From the IMG/VR virus record IMGVR_UViG_3300032083_002886, positions 1 to 34,459 of that record: a DNA stretch of 34,459 nt. One strand, 5' to 3'. This document shows, in pieces, positions 16,083 through 34,459 of this stretch (position 1 is its first letter; every line of letters begins with the position of its first letter). Under the pieces are notes generated by a model. The model had not been told where the DNA came from. It was given only the letters and a program-made list of their open reading frames with translations, and did not search any database. The stretch comes from a virus. The translations under genes were made by a program, and so were the position numbers.

Positions 16083-16853
16083 TTATTTTGTAGGATCAAA
16101 CAGGGCTTTTTCTTTGGTTGCGAGGGCGTCTTTCAATTCCTGTTCTCTGTTTATGCCAGGGTTGTAATTCCATCCTGGATCAATACCACGCGGTATGATT
16201 TCCACTTCGCCCGTTCGCTTGTTAACCCATTCCTTGGTTCCGTTATCGGGCGCTTCGGTTTTGATCTTGCCATCCTTCACGAGCTGCTCATATTCACCGC
16301 GAGACACTTGGCGTACACCGCACTTGCAGCCCCAGCCGTTTGGCGTCATGTGGGTTTTCCACCACGGGTCATCAATGGGCAAGCAAGTACTAGCCCATTG
16401 CTCGTGTTGGTGCCTATGATTCTCGGACGGGCCAAGTTCATAGATGAGATACGGCAAGGCGCGCTTAGTACGTTGCGCTCGTTCCCATTGACCAGCGGCG
16501 CGAGCGGTACGCATGTTGGTTTTGTAGATGGTTTTAATACGGCCAGTACTGCCAAGCTGTACGGGTTGCGTCTCGTTTGTTAGCGGGTCGACCATTTCTT
16601 GTATGCCCCACCATCCCTTTTTAACGAGTAGTGGTTTTAGTACATCACGGAACTGGGCGAACGTCTGGCCGCTTGCAATAGCGTCGGCAACCATAACCTG
16701 TACATCAAGTAACAAATCCGCATTGGTCATCTTGGCAACGGTGAATGCGTTGCCATGTTCCGCTTTCCAAACATCACGATAGTCAAAACCTGGCTTTAAA
16801 TCTTTGTCGATTAAATAGCGTAGAGCCTCTTGGTTGATGACATTATCAGACAT
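16083..16853 (-). CDS. Minor head protein, Mu gpF/gp30-like (short form)
   Basis: The 256-residue product belongs to the phage head morphogenesis family (Mu F, SPP1 gp7), a minor capsid protein bound near the portal. The C-terminal motif STCLPIDDPWWKTHMTPNGWGCKCGVRQVS is diagnostic: it carries the conserved Cys-x-Cys at the family's end. The N-terminal region (FTVAKMTNADLLLDVQVMVADAIASGQTFAQFRDVLKPLL) is also typical. It is clearly shorter than Mu F (about 420 residues, from memory), lacking a C-terminal extension. It overlaps the portal gene by 8 bases. Confidence 0.9.
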   Translation of the reverse strand: MSDNVINQEALRYLIDKDLKPGFDYRDVWKAEHGNAFTVAKMTNADLLLDVQVMVADAIASGQTFAQFRDVLKPLLVKKGWWGIQEMVDPLTNETQPVQLGSTGRIKTIYKTNMRTARAAGQWERAQRTKRALPYLIYELGPSENHRHQHEQWASTCLPIDDPWWKTHMTPNGWGCKCGVRQVSRGEYEQLVKDGKIKTEAPDNGTKEWVNKRTGEVEIIPRGIDPGWNYNPGINREQELKDALATKEKALFDPTK

Positions 16854-18432
16854 CGTTTACGTCTCCCAATGCACGAGACTGAAACATCATTCTAGCCAAC
16901 TGCTCGGTGAACTGTTCCGCTGTCAGGTTCTGTTGTAGCTCTGGCAGTAACGCTTGAAACTCTTCAAAGCTGCTCACAGATTCAGCCGCTTTTAAAATCG
17001 GGTTCATAAACTCTTCACCACCGACCTCGACCCAGTCGGCCATGGCCTCATCTGTCATGTCGTCGATATCCGTATCGATATTGGTCTGTGTACGATTCAT
17101 TGCGACGGGGCGAGTAGATCGATTTAACGCTGTGCCGTTTAAACCCTGTTCACTGCTTGGATAAACGGGCGTTAAACTACCTTCTGGTGTTAGCAGTTCG
17201 TCATCGTCTTCGGCTGGCTTCAAACCAAACTTATCCAGTATTTGTTTTGCTGATACTTTCATACCGCGATCAATCATAGGGGCCAGTGAGTCAACCAGCA
17301 TTTTCAAATCTTCTGGCTCGTCAATCTTGATGCGAACGCGAGGGTAATGCTCTTGCACACCCCAGTTTAGAATAATGTAGGGCTTAACGAGCTGGTCGTT
17401 GATCGTTGCTTCTAACTGTCGCGCGTCCCACTTTGCAATGTCCGTCCGTACTTCGTCATGCACTTCGGCTTGGCTGCGTGAGCTGCCATTGTCGCTCGTC
17501 ATGGTTTGACCAAGTACGGCTTTACTAATTTGTTCGTCACACCATCGGGCCATGTTTTCAAAAAGCGTATCGCCACCTTTCGCTGCACCAGATTCGATAA
17601 GTTCCATTTTCATAGAGTCAGGAATGGCCGCGCCTGCATCGCTGGCGATTTTACCGATCGCATTGATCAGTGTGGCGATGTCGTCTTTGGTGGCGTTCGG
17701 GCCATACTTGCCCACGCGGATCGGGATGCCGAACACTTCTGCGAATGACCACCAATCTCTAAGCGTGTAGCTTTTCAGCATGTACATAACAGCAACTAAG
17801 CGAGCCAAACCATTGCGCCACACGCTGCCAGACTTCGAGCGCGGTGTGTGGACGATGAACTTGTATGGTTCAAGCGGTGCACCGTATGGGGCTTCGTCAC
17901 TGATCAATAGAATCTCTTGGAGCGTGTCCTGGTCTGGACGCAAGTAACGAGGGTCTACCCATTTATAAGCTTGTGGTGTCCATGGCGTTTTGTTGGTGTT
18001 CCATAGGATCTCAGATACACCAATGCCTTTACCAAGGCCATCAAGCAAATCAAAGAACAGCTCTGGCATGGCGTCTTGATGGAGGATCGCGCGTACACGA
18101 TCCGCCATAGCAACATCAGCAGGGGAATCACTGGCCGCTTCGACCGTTGGCATGATAGACGCGACAACGAGCTTACGCGTTCTAAGCTGTGCCGCGTAAT
18201 GCAAGTCTCGCTCTTCCATTTCTTCTGCGAGCGTCATGTATTGTTCTGGGTCGTTACCGTCAACCACACCACGCAACAACCCAGCCAAGCGGCTGGGCGT
18301 TAACATACTGGCAACACTAGCGGGTCGTGGGTTGCGAATACCTGTTGTGTAGGCTCGCGTTATTTCTTCGCTGAGGATTTCTTTCTCGGCTTCGAAGGGC
18401 TTGCCGTTCTGGTCTAAAATTGGGCTGGTCAT
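16846..18432 (-). CDS. Portal protein, Mu gp29-like (DUF935)
   Basis: The 528-residue product is the dodecameric portal at the capsid vertex through which DNA is packed. Family marks are MLTPSRLAGLLRGVVDGNDPEQYMTLAEEMEERDLHYAAQLRTRKL, WVDPRYLRPDQDTLQEILL, FIVHTPRSKSGSVWRNGLARL and MARWCDEQISKAVLGQTMTSDNGSSRSQAEVH. Its start overlaps the terminase stop by ATGA, so terminase and portal are translationally coupled. Confidence 0.94.
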   Translation of the reverse strand: MTSPILDQNGKPFEAEKEILSEEITRAYTTGIRNPRPASVASMLTPSRLAGLLRGVVDGNDPEQYMTLAEEMEERDLHYAAQLRTRKLVVASIMPTVEAASDSPADVAMADRVRAILHQDAMPELFFDLLDGLGKGIGVSEILWNTNKTPWTPQAYKWVDPRYLRPDQDTLQEILLISDEAPYGAPLEPYKFIVHTPRSKSGSVWRNGLARLVAVMYMLKSYTLRDWWSFAEVFGIPIRVGKYGPNATKDDIATLINAIGKIASDAGAAIPDSMKMELIESGAAKGGDTLFENMARWCDEQISKAVLGQTMTSDNGSSRSQAEVHDEVRTDIAKWDARQLEATINDQLVKPYIILNWGVQEHYPRVRIKIDEPEDLKMLVDSLAPMIDRGMKVSAKQILDKFGLKPAEDDDELLTPEGSLTPVYPSSEQGLNGTALNRSTRPVAMNRTQTNIDTDIDDMTDEAMADWVEVGGEEFMNPILKAAESVSSFEEFQALLPELQQNLTAEQFTEQLARMMFQSRALGDVNDV

Positions 18433-20033
18433 AATCGTATTCCTTGTCGGCCTGACGCTTGGCCAATGTCATCATATAAGTCATTTTCTTCGGCGGTACC
18501 AAAGAAGCGGCGGTTGATATCGTCGCCACGGCCGCCGATGGTGTGGAGTTCGTAACGTGTCATTTCTTGTTTTGAAACGATGTAACCAAGGAATATAGCG
18601 ATGGCGCTATCGCCGTGACGTTTGTTTCCGTCGCTGCCTTTTGTTCGGCTGTCATCTATGCCAGGCACACCACGAATGATTTGGATTTGACCGAGATCAG
18701 TCACGATGTCTTCATGCTTAGGCAGGACAATGTCGTCGTCTTCGAAAGCCGCTTTAAAGATGGGCATGTTCTCTCGGTAGTAACCAACGGACAACATGAC
18801 TTCGACCACTTCATCACCGTATTTGTATTTGGCTTGCTCGGCTAAGTATTGGCCGTTGCCTCGCGCATCCAGCGCAATGCCGTCCCGCTTGGGCAAGCGA
18901 TCACAGATAAAATACAGCGCTTGCTCTTGCTGCTTGAATGGCACGTTCGCCAGCTCAACAAGAAAAGGCACGATGCGTTTTGTGTTGGCTTCGACTGTTA
19001 TCGGGGCGAATACGGTTAAGTCTCCGTTCCTGGCAAAGTCTTCCCCAAGACAGTGTCGTAAATCGGGTGGCAGCTTTTCTAATTCTGGCAGTACGAACTC
19101 TTCTAGCCACTCTTGCATTTCACCTTTGCGTGCATGTTCGCTGGCTGTGTTAAACGTAGAGGTTCCAGTAAATCGAAAAACAGGCGCATCAAGTAGGCGG
19201 GCCGCACGATCACGCAGGCCACGAGAGATATAAGCGCCACCGCCGTTTTTAGGAACGCAGTAATATTCTTCTAGGGCGTCTTCTTCGGTAGCCGTGTCTT
19301 TGATTAAGTTGGCTTTCCATTCGTCTTCGAGTTCCTGTGACCACTCTTGTTTTTTAACCTGACAGATACGCTTATAAAGACCATCTGCGCATGCACGGTC
19401 TAGGGTTATAGTATGAATGGAGTAGCGTTTCTTACCCGCGAGACTGTCTTGAATTAGCTGGTTGAATAAGTTTTCAATGCCGTTATGAGTGGAAATGATG
19501 CGGACTTTTGAGCCCCACATGGTCAAGGCAAGCGCGGCTTTTAACACCTCGGCTAACTTCTCATGGAATGCCGCTTCATCGATCACTACTGTACCTTGCA
19601 TCCCCCGCATGTTTTTGGGATTAGACGACAGAGCTTTTACTTTAAAACCAGACGAGAAATAAATCACATAAGTGAGAATGTCTTTGTCTTCATCTTCAAA
19701 GACTTCTTCGCCCACATCACCACACGCTAAGTTGTATGCTTTGGCCCACATTGCCACAGCGTCGATAAATTCCCGCGCCATGTCTTTGTTAGAACCAATA
19801 TAAAATACATCTTCCCCGCCAGCATCCGACGCCATAGATGCGGTTAATGCATCGTCTGCGGCTTCGGCCCAGGTCACACCAGTACGACGAGATTTTTCAC
19901 AAATCTTTAATTGTGAGCTGTCATTGATCCAATCTTTTTGATAATCCAACAACACTTCATCAGGATTAAATTCTTTTCGCAAAATAGCAGCGGCTGATTG
20001 GCTGGTGAGTTGCTGTAGCTCGGACGTGATCAT
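18429..20033 (-). CDS. Terminase large subunit, Mu gp28-like
   Basis: This 534-residue packaging motor has an N-terminal ATPase and C-terminal nuclease. KICEKSRRTGVTWAEA (about 43-58) is the Walker A-like loop of the Mu terminase family and TVVIDEAAF (about 148-156) the Walker B with its catalytic Glu. EDFARNGDLTVFAPI, GIALDARGNGQYLAEQ and KGSDGNKRHGDSAIAIFLG carry the acidic residues expected of the RNase H-like nuclease. I start at the ATG at 20033, which makes an ATGA overlap with the preceding small gene; an upstream in-frame start at 20081 would lie fully inside that gene. Confidence 0.94.
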   Translation of the reverse strand: MITSELQQLTSQSAAAILRKEFNPDEVLLDYQKDWINDSSQLKICEKSRRTGVTWAEAADDALTASMASDAGGEDVFYIGSNKDMAREFIDAVAMWAKAYNLACGDVGEEVFEDEDKDILTYVIYFSSGFKVKALSSNPKNMRGMQGTVVIDEAAFHEKLAEVLKAALALTMWGSKVRIISTHNGIENLFNQLIQDSLAGKKRYSIHTITLDRACADGLYKRICQVKKQEWSQELEDEWKANLIKDTATEEDALEEYYCVPKNGGGAYISRGLRDRAARLLDAPVFRFTGTSTFNTASEHARKGEMQEWLEEFVLPELEKLPPDLRHCLGEDFARNGDLTVFAPITVEANTKRIVPFLVELANVPFKQQEQALYFICDRLPKRDGIALDARGNGQYLAEQAKYKYGDEVVEVMLSVGYYRENMPIFKAAFEDDDIVLPKHEDIVTDLGQIQIIRGVPGIDDSRTKGSDGNKRHGDSAIAIFLGYIVSKQEMTRYELHTIGGRGDDINRRFFGTAEENDLYDDIGQASGRQGIRL

Positions 20034-20227
20034 ACTGGCAATCCAGAAACCGATAGAGAGACAGTGCAAGCGCCGTCCCATTCAAACTGGCGACTTTCTT
20101 TGAAGTCTTCTTTTAGTGACGCTGTGATACCCGCAATGACTTCATCAATGTTTGGATAGTACACAACGCTATCGTCTGCATTAGTTACCAGTATGCCGTT
20201 TTGAATTTGCTGCAATTCATGCTTCAT
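20030..20227 (-). CDS. Small protein of unknown function before the terminase
   Basis: This 65-residue product is bracketed by 4-base ATGA overlaps with the Acb2-like gene upstream and the large terminase downstream, and GAGGA precedes its ATG, so it is surely translated. The sequence (ILVTNADDSVVYYPNIDEVIAGITASLKEDF) suggests a small alpha/beta protein with no cysteines and no membrane segment. I do not recognise a family. Its insertion with the next gene between terminase subunits hints that the two act as a pair. Confidence 0.75.
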   Translation of the reverse strand: MKHELQQIQNGILVTNADDSVVYYPNIDEVIAGITASLKEDFKESRQFEWDGACTVSLSVSGLPV

Positions 20228-20409
20228 ACTAATGTCCTCACAGCCGCATCTTTTGACTCAAGCAGCTTACGAAGCGCCACGACTCTTTCCTCATTGTCAG
20301 GTAGACGCTCAGCGATCAGTTCAGCCATATCAGAAAAAGGCTTGCTGACTAGCTGCAAATGCTCTGGCAAGTGCTGCCATTTAAAGAACTTTAAAATCTC
20401 TGGTTTCAT
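20224..20409 (-). CDS. Acb2/Tad1-like hairpin-domain protein (possible cyclic-nucleotide sponge)
   Basis: The 61-residue product is a helical hairpin: ILKFFKWQHLPEHLQLVSKP, then FSDMAELIAERLPDNEERVVALRKLLESKDAAVRTLV. The layout F-x-x-x-H-L-P-x-H-L-Q-x-V-S-x-P-F, a Leu-Ala-Ile helix, L-P-x-N-x-E-R, and A-L-R-K-L-L-x-x-K-D-A-A-V-R recalls the Acb2/Tad1 hairpin family. Acb2 and Tad1 bind the signalling nucleotides of CBASS and Thoeris and so block those defences. Recognition is from memory of the family pattern, not a search. The start is taken at ATG 20409 (TGATG overlap with the small terminase stop, AGGG upstream); a GTG one codon earlier is possible. A structural role in packaging is the main alternative. 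Confidence 0.6.
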   Translation of the reverse strand: MKPEILKFFKWQHLPEHLQLVSKPFSDMAELIAERLPDNEERVVALRKLLESKDAAVRTLV

Positions 20410-20993
20410 CACGCGATCCCTAGAATGTGTTTCTTAATGTCGGCGGCGGTGTCCGCTGAAATACCCGCTTTTTTAACAACAGCTTCCACTTCACTGGCGG
20501 CTTGTTCGGCAAACGCCTTACGAATTTCTTTTTCGACTTTGTGGCTTGTCATGGCGGCTTGTTCGATACGCTGCACAACTAAGGCAAGTTGGCCAAGTGC
20601 TTTTGGTGGGATAGGTTCAGCGCCTTCTTTCTCTGCTTCGTCCATCATGTGCATGGAGGTTTCGAACGCCATGGTTCGCACAAACTCTTGCAGTAATTTG
20701 CCAACTTCTGAAACAGGGGCATCACCTAGCTTGGTCGTCCATACCTCGGCAACCTCACGCGCTTCACGAATACGAGCGCCACGGTTTTCCATGCGCTGTG
20801 CATAGCGGTTAAATGACGTGCGGCTGATCTTGGCATCTTCGGGTAAGCCTGCTTCGTCGATCATTTCATTGACGGCGGCTAGGATGTCTTTTTGCAACAT
20901 ATTGCCAGAACGAATTAACGCACCGATGCTGGTGCGAATGTCTTCTGGCAGTAGGTCTACTTTTGACTTGCGGTTCTTTGCTCGCTTTAACAT
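20409..20993 (-). CDS. Terminase small subunit, Mu gp27-like (DUF3486)
   Basis: The 194-residue protein fits DUF3486, the Mu gp27 family that recognises the phage pac end and recruits the large subunit. RKSKVDLLPEDIRTSIGALIRSGNMLQKDILAAVNEMIDEAGLP is the family's N-terminal DNA-binding helix region, followed by SRTSFNRYAQRMENRGARIREAREVAEVWTTKLGDAPVSEVGKLLQEFVRTMAFE. AAGGGG precedes its ATG. Two very small genes separate it from gp28, unlike Mu. Confidence 0.9.
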   Translation of the reverse strand: MLKRAKNRKSKVDLLPEDIRTSIGALIRSGNMLQKDILAAVNEMIDEAGLPEDAKISRTSFNRYAQRMENRGARIREAREVAEVWTTKLGDAPVSEVGKLLQEFVRTMAFETSMHMMDEAEKEGAEPIPPKALGQLALVVQRIEQAAMTSHKVEKEIRKAFAEQAASEVEAVVKKAGISADTAADIKKHILGIA

Positions 20994-32796: not shown

Positions 32797-33051
32797 TTAA
32801 ACGTTTAAACGGTGTTTAAAGATTCGTTGTGCATCCGTTGCGGTTGCTCAACTAACAAGACTTAAAATACTAATTTTAAAACCACTGCTCAAACTGGCGT
32901 AAAATTTCCACGCTGCTAAAATGCAAAAGGGGCCAAAGTCTAAACAGACCTCAACCCCTCTAATTCACTGGCTTTCTAGTTTTAAATCCCGTCTATTCCG
33001 TGGAACTTCCGGTTAATCCCTGAATATGATCATTTAAGTAGTCCCTATACA
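32797..33051 (-). other. Prophage left terminus: repeat motifs, hairpin and probable transposase sites
   Basis: No gene is seen between the repressor stop and the phage end. Read inward from 33051 it begins TGTATAGGGACTAC, sharing TGTAT with the Mu left end as I recall it. AGTTTGAGCA (minus, 32895-32886), TTTTGCATTTTA (minus, 32928-32917) and a related AGTTGAGCAAC (minus, 32853-32843) mirror motifs of the right end. A hairpin AGGGG/CCCCT (32928-32932, 32955-32959) with inner stem GTCT/AGAC may end the repressor transcript. The sites lie 120-210 bases from the end, comparable to the spread-out L sites of Mu. Confidence 0.6.
32799..32819. repeat. Left-end copy of the AAACGTTTAAAC / TTTAAACGGTGTTTAA element
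   Basis: AAACGTTTAAAC (32799-32810) overlaps TTTAAACGGTGTTTAA (32804-32819). The first is identical to 15997-16008 and the second differs by one base from 15971-15986, both in the central noncoding element. The copy starts right after the repressor stop codon. Both motifs are near-palindromes, typical of protein-binding sites. Confidence 0.7.
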
Positions 33052-34459
33052 CCGCTTGAAATAATTGTTTGATATGCGCTCAGCACAGCATTAGAAAAAA
33101 TCTCGCTTTGGCTGATTTCTGTTGAGAAAATATCGTTGAGTTTTAGGGCTTCGCTAACCAAGCTTTCTGGGTCAGAACAACGAGCATGGAGTTCGCTTAG
33201 TGTTTGCGCCATTGGGTCATCGACCTTGTGCTGATTACCTTCTAGATCTTCGCCGCGAACATAAAATAACCATGCCGCTATACCTAGTGCTGTCGCATTA
33301 AGCCCCCCCTGTTTCGCCCCTTTCGCTAAACGTTCTTCTGCGCCATTTAACCAACGCTGAGGAATTTTCTGTGAGCCATCCATCGCAATTTGTGACAACT
33401 GATGCTGCAGACTGTCATTAGCAAAGCGGCTCACTAGACTTTCAATGTAGGTTTGTACTTGAACCTCTTGTGGTAGATCCAAGGTAGGCGAGGCTTCAAC
33501 GCTCATGTAGTGACGAATTAAGTTCGCAAATTTTTCATCCGCAACGGCTTGTGCCACGGTTTTATGCTTAGCGGCTAAGCCAACATACGCCAACAAGGAA
33601 TGACTGCCGTTTAATAAACGAAGCTTCATGGTTTCAAATGGATGAACGTCTTCCACCATTTGTACGCCATCGTTTTCCCAATCTGGACGACCTTGTGGGA
33701 AGTTGTCCTCTACTACCCATTGGCTGAAAGCTTCACACATGACCGCATTTTGATCGTCGCATTGCAGCTCTTTCTGTAAACGGTCACGAGAATCATCCGA
33801 CATAGCTGGTACGATTCTGTCGACCATGGAGCTAGGAAACGCCACATTATCTTGAATCCATTGCGCGAGTTCAGTCGAACGCAGAGCGGCTAGATCACAA
33901 ACGGCTTGGCGAGTTAAACGACCATTCTCTGGCATGTTGTCACAAGACAAGATGGTGAACGGCTCTAAACCAGACTCTTTTCGGCGATACAAGGCTTCAA
34001 CCAAGATTCCCGGTGCGGTTTTTGGCGCAGTTGGGTTCTGTATATCGTGCTGAATGCTTGGATCATCTTGGCGCAGAGTTTTGTCCGCTGGTGACAAGTA
34101 ATAGCCTTTTTCTGTGACGGTTAAAGTCACGATCTTTGTCTTTGGCGACACAAGCTTGGTAAACAAAGGCTCTTTATCAGCGCCAGCAAATAGAGCATCA
34201 CGAATCGCGTTGATCTCGCGCAACTCGACGTTCTGGCTGTCTTGATATTCGGCAATATGATAACGGCAACCATTGCTTTTTAACTCGTCGACCAACTGGC
34301 TATTCGAGCGAATATTTACCGCACAAATCCCCCAATCGCCTCCTTGGTGACGATTGAGGTTTTTCTCGATATATACGGCTTGATGTGCACGATGAAAAGC
34401 ACCTAAACCGATATGAACAATGCCAACATCTACCTTATCTGGAGCATATAAAGTATCTG
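33045..34459 (-). pseudogene. uxuB: Fructuronate reductase UxuB, C-terminally truncated by the prophage (N-terminus beyond window)
   Basis: UxuB reduces D-fructuronate to D-mannonate with NADH, one step before UxuA. The visible 471 codons start in the Rossmann fold (VGIVHIGLGAFHRAHQAVY) and include SCDNMPENGRLTRQAV and the polyol-dehydrogenase signature MKLRLLNGSHSLLAY with the catalytic Lys, Asn and His. Only a short N-terminal piece is outside the window. Host sequence ends at 33052; the last two codons and stop (GGT GTA TAG) are completed by the phage terminus TGTATAG. Compared with the original gene the last 20 residues are missing. The catalytic domain is whole, so activity may survive; MtlD-like polyol dehydrogenases are the alternative, but the adjacent uxuA decides for UxuB. 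Confidence 0.88.
33052..33056. repeat. Target-site duplication CCGCT (left-end copy)
   Basis: CCGCT follows the terminal CA (33050-33051) of the prophage and lies inside the uxuB coding sequence, where it encodes part of Ser-Gly on the minus strand. It matches 238-242. Confidence 0.9.

Follow-up and report, generated by a model that had tools for sequence, protein, structure and literature searches.

A 61-codon gene carried by a Mu-like phage belongs to a widespread protein family that is a separate sister of the Acb2/Tad1 hairpin family, not a member of it. From its kinship with these sponges, we consider it likely that the gene, as part of this new sister family, encodes a putative sponge for a nucleotide signal. 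We analyzed the gene in its window, a 34,459-nt IMG/VR virus record, together with relatives from phages, viral contigs and bacterial genomes.

Results

The hairpin gene (20224..20409, minus strand; phrog_1761 / phrog_5120) starts with ATG at 20409, has its last codon at 20229-20227 and ends with the stop TGA at 20226-20224. Its 61-residue product is MKPEILKFFKWQHLPEHLQLVSKPFSDMAELIAERLPDNEERVVALRKLLESKDAAVRTLV. The ORF length and the opening and closing motifs given in a first-pass annotation, made from the sequence by itself, were exact; the strand, which it did not state, is minus. The gene shares 1 nt (TGATG) with a Mu gp27-type small terminase gene on its upstream side and 4 nt (ATGA) with a 65-aa ORF on its downstream side. 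The translational coupling on both sides that had been claimed is what we infer from these overlaps, which are themselves observed. The gene is under purifying selection (dN/dS about 0.11), with values of 0.105-0.123 against four close homologs. Because homologs are also numerous, the ORF is a genuine gene and not a chance ORF.

The order of genes, all on the minus strand, is small terminase (20409..20993; PF11985, E 3.6e-53; phrog_426), hairpin gene, 65-aa ORF (20030..20227), large terminase (18429..20081; Terminase_6N, PF03237, phrog_2; with ATG 20033 as the probable start) and Mu-type portal protein (16846..18432; PF06074, E 5e-101). The first-pass annotation had wedged the hairpin gene between the terminase subunits. 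It does adjoin the small subunit gene, but not directly the large one, since the 65-aa ORF intervenes. That ORF has no convincing family match. It occurs between the hairpin gene and the large terminase in two relatives (L001, 85%; L002, 55%) and is missing from two others (L003 and L242). A joint role for the two products, which had been suggested, is therefore unlikely, as the ORF is absent from several close relatives, and we rejected a partnership with this lineage-specific ORF.

Besides the gp27-type terminase and the Mu-type portal, the window carries genes that, judging by eye from the sequence, we take to encode a MuA-like transposase, a MuB-like ATPase and a repressor. At the right edge lies a mannitol-dehydrogenase-like gene (33045-34457, minus strand; also judged by eye) that is probably host DNA past the prophage end. 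With MuA-like, MuB-like and repressor genes inside and a host dehydrogenase at the edge, the window looks like an integrated Mu-like prophage. No Tad2-like domain (PF11195) was found in the hairpin protein or in the window.

Relatives of the hairpin protein are common. With tblastn at E up to 1, a phage collection yielded homologs in 321 records, 313 of which cover at least 80% of the protein. The phages infect Vibrio, Erwinia, Acinetobacter, Brevibacterium, Gordonia, Mycobacterium and other hosts, and nearly all of these homologs are annotated as hypothetical, the label being "anti-TRAP" or "occludin homology" in a few cases. Homologs were present in 151 viral contigs, relatives are encoded in at least 541 viral-contig stretches, and a further 57 loci in species genomes encode relatives, with prophages from many phyla represented (Pseudomonadota, Actinomycetota, Planctomycetes, Myxococcota, Acidobacteria and others), the closest being from Marinomonas rhodophyticola (89%). 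Across 174 distinct relatives, F9, H13, L14, P15, S22, A29 and E41 are at least 90% conserved, as is nearly the whole stretch L46-R58, the exceptions being positions 52 (A/S) and 55 (A/C). Since the relatives were retrieved with short exact patterns, this sampling is biased toward the conserved end, which is overrepresented. The family is widespread and so far unnamed, with recent sponge surveys lying outside this comparison.

To relate the family to Acb2 and Tad1, we used the Pfam model of their hairpin, PF24729. The hairpin protein did not match it at E<=1 or reach the curated cut-off of 27 bits, and the window gave no match at E<=10; among 54 relatives, only four touched the model (best E 0.018, below the cut-off). 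Scans of the hairpin protein against Pfam, NCBIfam and PADLOC returned nothing useful, and weak sigma-factor matches (E 0.02-0.04) were dismissed as noise. Our reference set consisted of 56 viral proteins retrieved with a consensus-like query that we wrote, each of which matches PF24729 in Pfam. Comparison of profiles with hhalign aligned the 54-sequence family to this set with 88.6% probability (P 2.6e-6), and an alignment of 174 relatives with 95.2% (P 2.5e-8). None of 800 decoys (400 column-shuffled and 400 that preserve the hydrophobicity pattern) came close, the best scoring 24.5 versus 43.0 for the real alignment. An HMM built from the PF24729 set detected relatives at 4e-6, while the best of 3480 shuffled decoys reached 0.29. 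The Acb2/Tad1 hairpin PHROG, phrog_1454, was matched by the complete PF24729 set (56/56) and by 31/54 relatives (best 1.5e-6), and phrog_1761, the PHROG of the hairpin family, was matched by 22/56 PF24729 proteins; thus, matching is reciprocal. Judged from these profiles, the hairpin protein is a remote homolog of the Acb2/Tad1 hairpin at the superfamily level, with a similarity greater than composition and helix pattern would produce. The homology spans about 51-63 columns of the PF24729/phrog_1454 family, which includes the short "Acb2 homolog 43" (PDB 9ptq). The search against the HMM of the Acb2/Tad1 family that the first-pass annotation had proposed gives no direct Pfam match; the lack of any significant HMM or structural match, which it had named as a refutation, is not borne out at the profile level.

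In a phylogeny, the hairpin family and the PF24729 set split with 100/100 support and a long branch, a result subject to sampling. PF24729 co-occurred with the family in 1/50 viral records, a figure that is uninformative because a background rate is lacking.

AlphaFold2 predicted a helical hairpin, as had been proposed, with a mean pLDDT of 96.5 and helices at residues 4-9, 16-35 and 40-60. The predicted topology, a short N-terminal helix followed by two long antiparallel helices, matches that described for the Acb2 protomer (PMC12043709). When Foldseek was run against predicted viral models (BFVD), homologs came first, followed by numerous proteins with the Acb2/Tad1 hairpin, the best of which reached E 0.11 and prob 0.99. 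Neither by sequence nor by fold did the PDB contain a significant solved-structure match to the hairpin protein, Acb2 and Tad1 included; a designed binder (best VIA Z 6.9) was dismissed, as this score is not meaningful for a helical hairpin. T4 Acb2 (Vs.4) is likewise a helical hairpin with a short N-terminal helix, but has no direct sequence match to the hairpin protein. Tad1 carries a C-terminal helical hairpin related to the family, together with an N-terminal beta domain that the hairpin protein lacks, and solved Tad1 is not matched directly. The family falls below the PF24729 cut-off, yet profiles, PHROGs and topology agree; it is therefore a sister family and not a member.

The two families share scaffold residues (F9, A29, P37, E41, A45, L46, K48, L49, E51 and A56 in the hairpin protein). 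Other positions are invariant in both but differ between them: from PF24729 to the hairpin family, R25 becomes S22, T50 becomes R47, E53 becomes L50, M-F-W 56-58 becomes K53-D54-A55, and N60 becomes V57. The changes of Thr to Arg47, Trp to Ala55 and Asn to Val57 fall where contact with the ligand is presumed. The PF24729 signature in the second long helix (R-E ... T-K-x-E-E-A-x-x-W-A-N) is not reproduced. The first-pass annotation would have taken loss of ligand-pocket residues, together with a lack of nucleotide binding, as evidence against its own proposal, and the loss of residues is partial: E41, K48, E51 and A56 are kept, while R43, T50, E53, W58 and N60 are replaced family-wide.

In T4 Acb2, changing T68 to Met weakens binding (PMC12657230), and Y8 and F82 contact the ligand (PMC12657218). 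T68, the Thr of TKLEEA, aligns with Arg47 of the hairpin protein, and the C-terminal aromatic F82 is replaced by Val61 or Leu in the family, so that neither has an equivalent. Y8 falls near W11/H13, within an N-terminal segment that is rich in aromatic residues and His in both proteins, although the alignment is approximate there. Because invariant residues at equivalent positions differ, the hairpin family probably has a different ligand or binding mode from Acb2, and the same ligand is improbable.

The family keeps company with other sponges. In 217 hairpin-family loci (1.85 Mb), we found five Tad2 genes, all confirmed with Pfam, and the distance to the hairpin gene is 9-57 nt in every case. 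Two of these loci are related to each other, which leaves four independent cases. In 20,000 rounds of random placement, at least four of five Tad2 genes were never this near. In the positive control, PF24729 genes had Tad2 within 1 kb in 5/80 loci. Both families consist of small stand-alone phage proteins and are associated with Tad2 genes. Tad2 adjoins only about 2% of hairpin-family relatives.

In some loci, a longer protein has the hairpin as its C-terminal half. Such fusions were found in two bacterial loci (L254:5827-6174 and L289:5728-6177) and, with the same module, in four Vibrio phages (L473-L476). The module-hairpin gene of Vibrio phage 1.205.O is immediately preceded by a crAss001_48-Tad2 gene. 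The N-terminal module reads MKKYIGTK...GYxVxYxDGYxSWSPKxxFExAY, and searching with it recovered many viral ORFs; L313-L392 are also among the loci with the module. It is predicted to fold as a beta-sheet plus a short helix, and has no relative in the PDB. Scanning 63 module proteins (that of L254 and 62 others) revealed Tad2-like PF11195 in 33, crAss001_48 (PF21825) in 33, PF13876, which is the Acb4 family (PMC11722364), in 12, and PF24729 in one, a Tad1 that matches the solved protein at E 8e-12. With local models, 3/65 retrieved module proteins had none of these four domains. The module thus links three kinds of known sponge (Tad2, PF13876/Acb4 and Tad1) and the hairpin family. For Tad2 and Acb4, the folds are unrelated to the hairpin, and the likeness is one of association only.

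Genes for crAss001_48 also lie directly beside the hairpin gene (L255:5586-5798, L273:6174-6374 and L256:6177-6383). This domain, which is often fused to Tad2, is a candidate sponge or sponge partner. Some relatives have zinc-ribbon-like CxxC segments before the hairpin (L301:765-1133 and L467:1605-2237); among CxxC relatives, we noted an anti-TRAP annotation in Ochrobactrum phage OH and weak Anti-TRAP and DnaJ matches. In Erwinia and Dickeya jumbo phages (L478:2794-3246 and L310:3755-4189), the hairpin is fused to an N-terminal P-loop-like segment, GDVGSGKSAAY, with a weak STAND-NTPase match in L478.

Could the hairpin, though of Acb2/Tad1 ancestry, have been repurposed to bind protein, for instance as a direct inhibitor of an immune protein or as an oligomerization subunit for neighboring sponges such as Tad2? 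The replaced Acb2 ligand-position residues would fit such a role, as would the near invariance of residues 46 to 58 on every face of the helix, which is expected of a buried interface, and the presence of the hairpin beside or fused to modules common to Tad2. However, the hairpin gene is alone in most genomes, and conservation over phages of very many hosts is easier to reconcile with a conserved small molecule than with a protein target, which would evolve fast. We regard this explanation as unlikely. Control of host physiology through sequestration of a nucleotide or metabolite that is not an immune signal, such as a second messenger with a housekeeping role, would also accommodate the broad host range and a common scaffold bearing different invariant residues, but the characterized partners of the shared module are all immune-signal sponges, which makes it quite improbable. 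Relatives are not known to play such a non-immune role.

The genomic context indicates that the hairpin gene is not tied to terminase. The matches of 107 flanking genes of relatives were spread over 87 PHROGs, with no PHROG recurring more than four times, and the annotated neighbors of homologs include capsid, tail, holin, endolysin and early genes. Vibrio phage martha 12B12 carries the hairpin gene at the same gp27-terminase junction as the window, while Vibrio phage 1.028.O, a Mu-like relative, has an empty site there, with gp27 abutting terminase. With random neighbors and an empty site, the hairpin gene is therefore accessory cargo, mobile between phage contexts, and not packaging machinery. 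Its place between small and large terminase in the window and its relatives could suggest a role in the packaging or head formation of Mu-like phages, but these neighbors and the empty site contradict that role, which we rejected as scarcely credible.

Discussion

A model that fits the kinship with Acb2/Tad1 and the company of other sponges is that the hairpin protein probably mops up a bacterial alarm molecule. As accessory cargo of a Mu-like prophage, the gene would supply a small helical-hairpin protein that, by analogy with Acb2 and Tad1, may oligomerize through its long helices and sequester a nucleotide-type immune signal. With the signal sequestered, the host effector would stay inactive during phage production.

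The resemblance to Acb2/Tad1 that was first noticed by eye is thus retained as remote homology (from profile comparison, decoys and reciprocal PHROGs), as predicted topology and as fusion to or adjacency with sponges. It does not extend to PF24729 membership or to the signature residues where ligand binding is presumed, and the choice of CBASS or Thoeris as the target is not supported.

More tentatively, and with a good deal of doubt, we suggest that this is a distinct and very widespread sponge family capturing an immune signal that none of Acb2, Tad1, Tad2 and Acb4 binds, and that the N-terminal module common to these proteins is the mark of a "sponge cassette" in which different signal-binding domains are interchangeable, including the hairpin and possibly crAss001_48. 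The altered yet invariant residues of the family suggest a different ligand, and the module would be a simple handle for discovering more types of sponge. If our reading is right, a family present in hundreds of sequenced phages gains a testable function, the evasion of nucleotide-signaling immunity.
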